A DNA stretch of 64,000 nt from Pontibacter sp. Tf4 (GTDB lineage: Bacteria; Bacteroidota; Bacteroidia; Cytophagales; Hymenobacteraceae): the NCBI RefSeq assembly GCF_014212495.1, contig NZ_JACKZC010000009.1:62001-126000 (forward strand). Reading direction: 5' to 3'. Below, piece after piece: positions 21,300-58,335 of the stretch (positions within the stretch are counted from its first letter, which is position 1; the number at the start of each line of letters is the position of its first letter). The notes beneath the pieces were generated by a model. It was not told the origin of the DNA. It ran no database searches and saw nothing but the letters and a program-made list of their open reading frames with translations. The translations under genes were made by a program, and so were the position numbers.

Positions 21300-22100
21300 G
21301 GACCATGGATTAATTGGGATTTAAGGGATTTTCAGGATATGTTTTACCTCTCCCCAGCTCTCTTCTAAAAACAGGAGAGGGAGTTTTGTCTGAATCAGGA
21401 TTTACAGGATTATGGGATTTTCAGGATTTGGGCTTTTGCTATAGTTGACTGCAATAGTTTCATAGTTGGCAAACACACCCCTACTCCTCCCCAAGAGGGG
21501 AATTACTGCTATAGTTATAGTTATAGTTACAGTTCTATAGTTGCTTTAGGTCCAACCACCCCTGCCCCTCCTTATCCAAGGAGGGGAACTCTGTCTTCGC
21601 TATAGTTTGAACTATAGTTCTATAGTTAAAGTCCACGAACAGGACAGGTTTACCTGTCCCTTCGGATTTACAATCACGTGTAAAACCGATCTGCTCAAGC
21701 TAAGAGCAAGCACAGCAACTATAGCTAAGGCAGCAGCTATCGAACTGTTATCAGTCTTTGGGTTGAGCGCCTTGTAGATTTGCGGTGCTGAAAGCATTGC
21801 GAGGCACGAGCAAAGGAAATGTACACCGCGCGATGCCCGAAGACGGGGCCTCCCGGCCGCAGAGGGAGCCAACCAAACTATAAAACTGTAGGCTCTTAGA
21901 GCTCCCAGGATGTAGAACGGCTATGCAACTATGGCTTTTTTCAGGTAGTAGGCAATGTTATCTATAGCACCAGACGCTAGCAGGAGCTGCGCACGCTGCT
22001 AGGTCTTTAGCAACTATAGGCTGAGATAGATTTCTCACTACACTCGAAATGACAAGAAGCGGACACATAAGATGTCTCGGCTGCGCTCGACATGACAAAT
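21300..22100. repeat. Composite repeat island 1
   Basis: About 0.8 kb with no gene, holding modules in the same order as islands 2 (41.3-41.9 kb) and 3 (57.7-58.3 kb). In order: AGGATT-rich repeats (21300-21345, 21388-21430); CCCCTCC palindromes (about 21477-21500 and 21565-21586); a run of ACTATAGTT; hairpin GGACAGGT/ACCTGTCC (21642-21659); a conserved core (21737-21910); hairpin CTAGCAG/CTGCTAG (21972-22006); and hairpins with CTCGAAAT (22023-22053) and CTCGACAT (22071-22096). An antisense reading frame at 21612-21872 is a translation of the repeat, so I do not call it a gene. Confidence 0.9.
21737..21910. ncRNA. Conserved structured core, copy 1 (candidate RNA or repeat)
   Basis: 174 nt, nearly identical to 41586-41759 and more diverged from 57950-58125. 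Invariant blocks include TCAGTCTTTGGGTTGAGCG, GCGATGCCCGAAGACGGGGC and GGCTCTTAGAGCTCCCAGGA. Drawable helices are CTCCC/GGGAG, GCTC/GAGC, an outer GCGC/GCGC and an inner GTGC/GCAC. Strand of any transcript unknown. No TAnnTTTG box was noticed right beside it. Confidence 0.5.
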
Positions 22101-49157: not shown

Positions 49158-49185
49158 ACTTTTGATTACGCAAATTTTGGAGAAG

Positions 49186-49778
49186 GGAGAAGCTGTAATG
49201 GTTTCTCCTTTTTTGTTTTATAGCTGCTGTGTATCAAACCACCCCTACCCCTCCTTATCCAAAGAGGGGAGCTTTTTACCTACTCATTTGCTTGCCTTTC
49301 GTTTAATATTCCTCAACCAATACCTCTTGGCATAAGATGGCAGTGCACAATCGAAGATACTTGAAAGAAAACCGTAAGAGATTAAGAAGTAGTTTAACAT
49401 CGGCAGAGGCTGAATTATGGAAGCACCTGAAGAATGGAAACCTGGAGGGCAGAAAATTCAGGCGGCAGCATAGTATCGGTAATTATATAGCGGACTTCTA
49501 CTGTCCTGCTGAACAGTTAGTTATTGAATTAGATGGACAAGTGCATATGAATTCTGTAGCAGAGCACGCAGACCAAGAGAGGGATCAATATATGAAAAGA
49601 CTCAACATAAAAGTACTTCGATTTGAGAATAAAGACGTTTTTGAGAAACTGAGCGCTGTGCTTCAGGAAATCAGCAATTGCTTCAGTAAGTAGTAGCTCC
49701 CCTCCTTGGATAAGGAGGGGCAGGGGGGGTGATACAGGCCAACTTTAGAACAAAAGGAGAAACCATTACAGCCTCTCC
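49186..49778. mobile_element. 593-bp element: DUF559 gene between about 85-bp inverted repeats
   Basis: Left arm 49186-49274 and right arm 49695-49778 are inverted copies. Each has, from outside in, GGAGA(A/G)GCTGTAATGG then TTTCTCC and a T-run, a GTATCA word, CCCCT(A/G)CCCCTCCTTATCC and AGAGGGGAGCT or GGAGGGGAGCT. The CCCCTCCTT hairpin recurs alone in repeat islands 1 and 3. No target-site duplication is obvious. The sole gene inside is the DUF559 endonuclease. Mobility is inferred. Confidence 0.7.
49337..49693 (+). CDS. DUF559 (Vsr-like, PD-(D/E)xK) endonuclease
   Basis: 118 residues, the normal size for DUF559. LTSAEAELWKHLKNGNLEG, KFRRQHSIGNYIADFYC and LVIELDGQVH are the family blocks. 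D53 and E64/D66 fit the D-x(n)-ExD centre of Vsr-like nucleases, and the early E24/E26 are also conserved in type. It should nick or cut DNA. It is the only gene in the 593-bp element, with the stop codon at the inner edge of the right repeat. Higher A+T than neighbouring genes supports horizontal origin. Target sequence unknown. The bracketing palindrome is the obvious candidate. Confidence 0.9.
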   Translation: MAVHNRRYLKENRKRLRSSLTSAEAELWKHLKNGNLEGRKFRRQHSIGNYIADFYCPAEQLVIELDGQVHMNSVAEHADQERDQYMKRLNIKVLRFENKDVFEKLSAVLQEISNCFSK

Positions 49779-49812
49779 TTTTTCTTTTGTCACAAAATCC
49801 TTTGTCAAAAAA

Positions 49813-50181
49813 TCAATCTTCCGGATACGGTATGAACACGAAATTCTGAAATTCGCCGTCTACTACAAACAGGCAGCAGAACTCGTCCGGGTCTTTGTAG
49901 GCAGCCTGAAAATCTTCTACACGATCTTCTAACACCAATTGGCGCTGTACAAAGTCTTCCAGGTACGATGCGTTGATGTTCCATTCCAGCGCCAGTTCTT
50001 CTTTAGCCAGAAAGTTAGAACCAACCGGCACTTGTGTGCGGCTGAACACGAAGATCGGGTATTTGGAAATATTACGTTTGCGCACCTGGTACGATGCTTC
50101 TCTCAAAGTTTCGGCTACCACTACAAAATCCTTCGAAATGGTGCCCAGGTATTTACCGTTTAATTCCGGATCGTTTTCCAT
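49813..50181 (-). CDS. Conserved hypothetical protein
   Basis: 122 residues, soluble and acidic. No named domain recognised. It shows alternating strands (GKYLGTISKDFVVVAE, YPIFVFSR) and ends FCCLFVVDGEFQNFVFIPYPED (extent only). The even codon use and a clean start near an inverted repeat of TAGATTTTAGATG type (50195-50279) suggest a real gene. It is followed, in its own direction, by the right arm of the DUF559 element, which supplies a hairpin and T-run. Lies just downstream of rlmD on the same strand. Function unknown. Confidence 0.7.
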   Translation of the reverse strand: MENDPELNGKYLGTISKDFVVVAETLREASYQVRKRNISKYPIFVFSRTQVPVGSNFLAKEELALEWNINASYLEDFVQRQLVLEDRVEDFQAAYKDPDEFCCLFVVDGEFQNFVFIPYPED

Positions 50182-57685: not shown

Positions 57686-58335
57686 GTCTGGATCAGGATT
57701 TACAGGATTATAGGATTTTCAGGATTGGGCCTTTGCTATAGTTGTAGCTATAGTTCTATAGCTGCGTTTGGTCCAACCACCCCTGCCCCTCCTTATCTAA
57801 GGAGGGGAACTCCTGTACCTGCTATAGTTTAAGCTATAGTTCTATAGTTACAGACCAAGATAGGACAGGTCGCGACCTGTCCCTACGGAATTACAACCAC
57901 GAGAAAAGCTATGCAACTCTAACTTATCAAACTACAGCCAGAGCAGCAGCTATCGAATATGATATCAGTCTTTGGGTTGAGCGCCTTTGACTTGTTGCGG
58001 TGCCGCAGGCAATCCGAGGCACGAGGATAGCAAGAAGGCAGCAGCGCGATGCCCGAAGACGGGGCCTCCCGGCCCCAGAGGGAGCCAAGTAAACTATAGA
58101 ACGGTAGGCTCTTAGAGCTCCCAGGAATAAAAACAGCTATGAAAGAGAAGGCTTATATCAAAGAGTAGGCAAAGGCAACTATAGCACCAGACGCTAGCAG
58201 GAGCTGCGCACGCTGCTAGGTCTTTACAAACTATAGCCTGAGATAGATTTCTCGCTTTGCTCGAAATGACAAAAGGGAGGCAAAGTCAACCACAGGCCAT
58301 ATAAGATGTCTCGGCTGCGCTCGACATGACAAGAG
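57686..58335. repeat. Composite repeat island 3
   Basis: Same module order as islands 1 and 2. In order: AGGATT repeat (57686-57725); ACTATAGTT run; CCCCTCC palindrome (57786-57807); hairpin GGACAGGT/ACCTGTCC (57863-57882); core (57950-58125); CTAGCAG hairpin (58189-58222); CTCGAAAT hairpin (58240-58270); and CTCGACAT hairpin (58305-58330). It fills the space between the convergent pepE and amidohydrolase genes. A minus-strand frame at 58224-58481 reads through repeats and terminator and is not a gene. Confidence 0.9.
57950..58125. ncRNA. Conserved structured core, copy 3, most diverged (candidate RNA or repeat)
   Basis: 176 nt. The first 30 nt, the GCGATGCCCGAAGACGGGGC block and the final block match copies 1 and 2. 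The middle 50 nt differ strongly but still offer GTGCC/GGCAC and TTGC/GCAA pairs at the same places, as expected if structure rather than sequence is kept. Confidence 0.5.

Follow-up and report, generated by a model that had tools for sequence, protein, structure and literature searches.

In the genome of Pontibacter sp. Tf4, a gene encoding a small DUF559 nuclease is enclosed by inverted palindromic arms, and comparison among relatives shows that DUF559 genes and arms of this kind travel together. Our preferred reading, which we judge rather probable, is that of a minimal selfish element in which an EDxHD-type DUF559 nuclease lies between inverted triplex motifs and is spread by host repair without a transposase. 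It would be a little-noticed kind of mobile element, and may account for the spread of an old family of bacterial DNA repeats that has had no explanation.

The locus lies in the window, the whole stretch of 64,000 nucleotides analysed. The nuclease gene (118 aa; 49337..49693, + strand) was identified by its match to PF04480 (E 8.5e-32), by alignment and by its predicted fold. The left arm (49233..49269, +) has a C-rich tag outside (49233-49247) and a hairpin inside (49248-49269), while the right arm (49699..49735, +) runs from a hairpin (49699-49720) to a G-rich tag (49721-49735). Both arms were recognised by sequence, inverted repeat and pattern match, with one mismatch to the palindrome pattern in the left hairpin and none in the right. 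The preliminary description had drawn a 593-bp element (49186-49778) whose inverted arms, of about 85 bp, were reverse-complementary over their whole length. The inverted arms around the gene were confirmed, as the best ungapped inverted score between the 250-bp flanks was 28.5, against a maximum of 12.5 in 500 shuffles. However, the complementarity falls into two pairs, an inner one (49238-49273 / 49695-49730, 36 nt, 92% complementary) and an outer one (49180-49212 / 49752-49784, 33 nt, 91% complementary), and each arm has two components, a dispersed hairpin repeat on the inside and a transcription terminator, doubled at this locus, on the outside. The gene does reach the inner edge of the right arm, as had been described, its stop at 49693 falling 1 bp short of the right repeat, which starts at 49695.

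The left outer arm (49186..49217, +), delimited by sequence, inverted repeat and empty relatives, is the terminator of thiL and probably lies outside the mobile unit. The right outer arm (49752..49784, −) is a second, inverted copy of that terminator and faces the convergent gene at 49813-50181. We judged 30 of 50 thiL loci by eye. Empty sites downstream of thiL, which the preliminary description had proposed to look for in close relatives, are present there, and empty sites exist also at other loci. Relatives that have no insertion at thiL (for example G029, G015 and G013) carry just one bidirectional terminator between thiL and the convergent gene. Two terminator copies were found downstream of thiL in G000, G045, G018 and G009; the loop shows them to be inverted in G000 and G045, and leaves their orientation undecided in G018 and G009. 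DUF559 comes next after thiL in G000 and G018, other repeats occupy this place in G009 and G045, and a DUF559 gene is on the opposite side of thiL in G014 and G028. The doubled terminator prompted us to consider inverted target duplication as an insertion signature, which we rejected as a general feature. Across the 78 loci with both outer ends placeable, out of 133 DUF559 loci fetched from the host genus (ten weak hits were left out), outer flanks from the same locus resembled each other no more than flanks taken from different loci did in classes A2, B1 and B3, and their likeness exceeded the 99th percentile at only 2 of 28 A1 and 2 of 17 B2 loci. Because the outer pair is a terminator and alike outer flanks are not general, the 593-bp element has to be trimmed, and we estimate that the mobile unit is nearer 49220-49750 than 49186-49778. 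The plan of a minimal mobile element, also read from this locus at the outset, is supported by the comparisons, with these narrower ends and with protein-driven movement that we infer.

The palindrome of the inner arms is repeated well beyond this locus. The window holds 4 matches against 0.00 expected, including copies elsewhere at 21565..21586 and 57786..57807 (both +, pattern match, 0 mismatches), and the 4.45-Mb genome holds 105 matches with at most 3 mismatches, while the reversed pattern gave 0. Arms also occur singly, as gene-less inverted pairs and as solo palindromes. One could suppose that the arms are mere terminators or regulators of the DUF559 gene, kept by selection: they are hairpins adjoining the gene, the outer pair here is a terminator, and a like palindrome of Enterobacter sp. 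638 is presumed, in the available part of PMC2869309, to be terminating. The dispersed copies already largely refute this idea, since it does not account for 105 matching genome sites or for orthologous sites that hold a gene-less pair or a solo palindrome, and we give it hardly any credence.

Gene and arms were found together across the genus. The Pontibacter sp. Tf4 genome has four DUF559 genes, all with arms, each of a different class, and DUF559 occurs in 46 of 50 genomes of the host genus. With an arm cut-off of 15, fixed after a first look at the data, arms were present at 123 of the 133 genus loci compared with 3 of 263 shifted controls (by set, 87/93 with controls at 1/184, and 36/40 with controls at 2/79). 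DUF559 genes lying without such arms in relatives, or a lack of empty sites, would have refuted the preliminary description. Neither was the case, since empty sites exist and arms flank most of these genes, with an arm sequence that varies by protein clade. The family was also detected in 109 of 198 sampled Bacteroidota genomes, and the 29 best new Bacteroidota loci had arms at 13 (shifted controls, 3/54). A bacteria-wide set was made up of 80 loci, the best among 573 relatives of one query group, drawn from Proteobacteria, Chloroflexi, Cyanobacteria, Bacteroidota and further groups. Arms were present at 51 of these loci and at 3 of 150 controls; both wider sets are best matches and no census. 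Loci below the arm cut-off numbered 10/133 in the genus, 16/29 in other Bacteroidota and 29/80 among the distant loci. We rejected plasmids and phages as chief carriers, few of their records matching one DUF559 query (45 of 72,556 and 3 of 50,697, respectively), and also rejected a defence-system identity, the PADLOC matches being weak and partial only.

The class of the arms follows the clade of the protein. When each gene was typed by whichever of 28 reference proteins it matched best, arm class matched protein clade in 87 of 89 loci excluding these references, compared with a mean of 19 and a maximum of 34 in shuffles; with the references included, 115 of the 123 armed loci could be classed and 113 agreed. 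A left flank paired with the right flank of another locus in 40 of 51 draws from the same clade and in 12 of 249 from different clades. In a tree of 89 genus proteins, those with the same arm class fall together; the tree rests on few columns, drew two long-branch warnings and has good support at 31 of its 86 inner branches. Flank similarity placed the 133 loci in 44 site clusters, 17 of them single, although diverged flanks may split such clusters and repeats may merge them.

We also counted three repeat classes in 50 genomes. Repeats were commoner with the cognate gene (A1, p=0.0035; B1, p=0.02; A2, p=1.6e-5), and commoner too with the unrelated B3 gene (p=0.0001, 0.0027 and 0.0019 for A1, B1 and A2), in a weak and confounded test that was uncorrected for ancestry, counted the element's own arms and combined strands differently per class. 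Repeats were present without the cognate gene in many genomes, and the four genus genomes without DUF559 had 3, 0, 5 and 1 A1 repeats. This persistence is what one would expect if another enzyme, or replication slippage, spread the repeats, and DUF559 served in repair or restriction and was simply carried along between two of them; Caulobacter VsrA, which has a DUF559 domain, is indeed proposed as a mismatch-repair endonuclease in the part of PMC12907096 available. Nevertheless, the agreement of arm class and protein clade (87/89) and the arms beside the gene at 123/133 genus loci and 51/80 wider loci (best 80 of 573) argue against a mere passenger, an explanation that we hold to be quite improbable.

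Sites occupied in one genome and not in another are apparent in sequence comparisons among relatives. The A2 element of our genome (L001) is shared with G029 and G015. At the same site, such repeats are missing from G013 and G018, G045 retains outer-end-like sequence with several other repeats between, and the sister genome G009 has, without the gene, a perfect palindrome of 50 nt, readable as a fusion of the outer halves of the two arms. By eye, no flanking direct repeats (target duplication) were seen at the L001 site. The B3 element of our genome (L003) is shared with G015 and G013; at its site, G018 has a left arm followed by other sequence, and none was found beside the left flank in G009, G045 and G029. 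A third site, between convergent genes, had both flanks recovered in 44 of 50 genomes: 9 carry an A2 DUF559 gene, 1 an A1 and 1 a B3 DUF559 gene, 5 a gene-less A1 pair and 1 a solo palindrome, and 27 are without a recognised palindrome. As the A1 and A2 patterns cross-match, class at this site rests on the protein or on a reading of the letters. The solo is a perfect 70-nt palindrome in G047; among the 27, the sequence of G038 looks like a degenerate solo, and a further near-perfect solo palindrome was found in G036 (L069). A solo palindrome may be either a target or a deletion scar. The A2 gene at the third site is oppositely oriented in G002 (L377) and G016 (L347), by either inversion or separate insertion. 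At this site in G025 (L263 / L358), the B3 DUF559 gene lies amid A1 and A2-like repeat remnants, an apparent nested series.

In G006, seven inverted pairs have hairpins at most 2 of 20 positions off the pattern around unrelated interiors of 88-98 nt, indicating that arms are kept or copied without the sequence that they enclose. The interiors of these seven and of one pair in G007 were no more alike than shuffled sequences (mean 16.2 vs 16.8), and for these eight pairs we rejected an origin of gene-less pairs by internal deletion of a gene-bearing element. One of the eight, L298 (G006), is without a clear left tag. Judged by eye, L298 and L307 (G015) seem to represent one and the same intergenic site, bounded by A2 arms in both genomes but filled differently: one holds 88 nt of unrelated sequence, the other a small open frame.

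In each arm a hairpin is followed, after a short spacer, by a tag mirroring the hairpin's purine arm, T being allowed for A, as in GGAGGGG-TA-GGGGTGG. A mirror-tag cut-off was reached by 87% of 93 scored genus arms (93 of 123 were scorable) and by 1.1% of shuffled tags. In the wider sets, where 13/13 and 46/51 were scorable, it was reached by 85% of 13 and 76% of 46 (shuffled, 5% and 6%). Intrastrand triplex motifs (TM/BoxC/PIT) have the same layout, and our identification goes by layout and sequence resemblance, with triplex formation predicted. In the part of Holder et al. 2015 available (PMC4666352), the number of genomes with TM motifs is put at more than 260 and the number of motifs in E. 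coli K-12 at 23, and the motifs are tied to unstable loci; their inverted pairs lose inner parts with a hairpin still possible, and transposase or integrase remnants were never found around E. coli TM sites. Compared at the level of this description, TM motifs share with our arms the hairpin with a mirror third strand, dispersed copies, inverted pairs, unstable loci and deletions inside inverted pairs that leave a hairpin. They differ in that TM sites in E. coli K-12 are, according to the same text, always intergenic, whereas here such motifs bound a nuclease gene. The palindrome CCCTCTCCC-XX(X)-GGGAGAGGG, common beside DUF559 genes in our bacteria-wide set (best 80 of 573), provides another link: the same sequence is described in the available part of PMC2869309 as having one hundred copies in Enterobacter sp. 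638, often two or three together. Its hairpin is identical to that beside many DUF559 genes of the wider set, but there the copies are presumed terminators, and that part of the paper links them to no gene. Among the papers listed in searches of the open full-text literature, which leaves most subscription papers and preprints outside, we did not find the link between DUF559 and these arms.

The enzyme was originally described as a Vsr-like nuclease. A nuclease fold is indeed predicted (mean pLDDT 87), but it is closer to the homing endonuclease I-Bth0305I than to Vsr: the first fold matches are 3hrl and I-Bth0305I, and Vsr (1vsr) comes tenth (E 0.061). By sequence, the nearest solved structures are 3hrl, a DUF559 protein (E 5.7e-35), and 3r3p, I-Bth0305I (E 6.4e-7). 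Positions E24, D53, E64, D66, H70 and D79 are invariant in a 12-sequence alignment, and we read E64, D66, H70 and D79 as a putative EDxHD-type active site. Active-site pattern and fold together place the EDxHD homing endonuclease feature in this protein (fold match E 4.3e-4), and a DUF559 gene was likewise placed in the EDxHD homing family in a cyanobacterial genome paper (PMC9403480, in the part available). In 116 of the 133 genus copies, the frame of the domain stays open for 95 codons or more, and median dN/dS by class is 0.05-0.09 (70 close pairs), indicating that the DUF559 protein is under purifying selection.

How might such a nuclease spread its arms? In the mechanism that we favor, the DUF559 protein, probably as a dimer, would recognise an arm of its own class or a solo palindrome and cut at or near the hairpin. 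As in homing, repair of the break would then place copies of the arms, and sometimes of the gene or whole unit, where the cut was made; the non-autonomous products would be single repeats and inverted pairs, and no transposase chemistry need be assumed. Comparison establishes the coupling of gene and arms, the dispersed copies and the polymorphism of sites, whereas we infer recognition, cutting, copying and movement by the protein. The elements resemble REP/RAYT systems (REPtrons; PMC3733652, as far as available), which also have a palindrome-flanked gene, dispersed palindromes and repeats that co-vary with the enzyme. However, REPtrons have an HUH tyrosine enzyme (Y1) and a GTAG tag, and our element has a DUF559 nuclease and a purine mirror tag. 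In our data, only DUF559 passes the Pfam cut-off in the window protein, no HUH transposase domain was found there with Pfam, and the arm tags shown are mirror G-runs such as GGGGTGG, with the GTAG tag absent. Since the tests of both enzyme and tag fail, we conclude that the element is not REP/RAYT, though it works alike.

A transposase-like route is nonetheless conceivable, in which DUF559 would move single-stranded folded arms at replication forks, in the manner of RAYT/TnpA-REP, and host enzymes would join the ends. It would fit ends that, in the arm classes, are palindromes carrying a mirror tag, the existence of gene-less copies and inverted pairs, the A2 gene in both orientations at one site (G002 vs G016) and the coupling of gene and arms. 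We consider it unlikely: the predicted fold resembles hydrolytic endonucleases, Pfam gives no passing HUH domain, and near-identical arms around unrelated interiors are unexpected under transposition of a unit. In addition, to our knowledge no end-joining activity is known for the DUF559 family.

Our preferred reading of a homing-type nuclease is closest to I-Bth0305I (PDB 3r3p; review, PMC3943268, in the part available), with which the window protein shares fold (TM-score 0.63 by query), sequence relation (E 6.4e-7) and active-site pattern; that some DUF559 copies lie in frame inside conserved genes is a further likeness. I-Bth0305I is known as an intron protein, whereas the DUF559 gene has its own inverted palindromic ends. 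By fold, then, the element belongs with EDxHD nucleases, yet it carries palindromic ends of its own. We are evenly divided over the broader proposal that such elements form a separate bacteria-wide mobile class, in which a stand-alone homing-type nuclease has a triplex-forming palindrome as both target and ends, and which would be the source of the TM/BoxC/PIT repeats. This would supply a candidate gene for a repeat family that was described by 2000 (PIT) and was still without one in 2015, as stated in the part of PMC4666352 at hand. If true, it would also say what a widespread nuclease family still named "unknown function" does, and would represent a second, independent way, besides RAYT/REP, for an enzyme and a short palindrome to spread together.

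The proposal would allow a direct test of why TM loci are unstable in E. coli, where the family is represented by YcjD. A ycjD query was covered over at least 80% in 3333 of 5426 genomes. In K-12, ycjD has no inverted arm pair (score 8) and has TM-like repeats downstream, on one side only. Between fabI and sapF (L337, L344-L346), ycjD and the eefRABCD pump operon take each other's place at one site, an exchange that is also reported in the available part of PMC12817139. Because ycjD alternates with this operon, the empty state in E. coli is not simple absence, and we rejected the species as a source of clean empty sites. Caulobacter VsrA, of the same family, differs in being discussed as mismatch repair; in the text available it is also held responsible for an SOS response when a methylase is missing (PMC12907096).

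Several DUF559 copies lie in frame inside conserved proteins: LeuRS, before the editing domain (L151, L154); methionine synthase MetH, between two B12 domains (L171, L177); and the type I restriction subunit HsdR (L157). The arm cut-off was missed by the LeuRS and MetH copies and just passed by that in HsdR (15.5). For these five host proteins (two LeuRS, two MetH, one HsdR), Pfam gives only DUF559 and the host domains, the exception being one sub-cut-off match over DUF559. Residues flanking several in-frame copies resemble translated repeats, for example PLPLGE. On a Synechocystis plasmid (L342), DUF559 lies just ahead of the BREX gene pglX, as if splitting it, with hairpin-like sequence on both sides by eye and an inverted score of only 9.5. 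Finally, many intergenic regions of our genome (L006-L029) contain, by eye, several hairpin classes in series, joined by stretches rich in CTATAGTT. An inverted repeat of another kind (GCGAGCGTCCACGCTCGTGAC) lies outside our genome's B2 element (L004, 1224-1261 / 1915-1952), and an inverted repeat resembling it was seen at the L001 site of G018.
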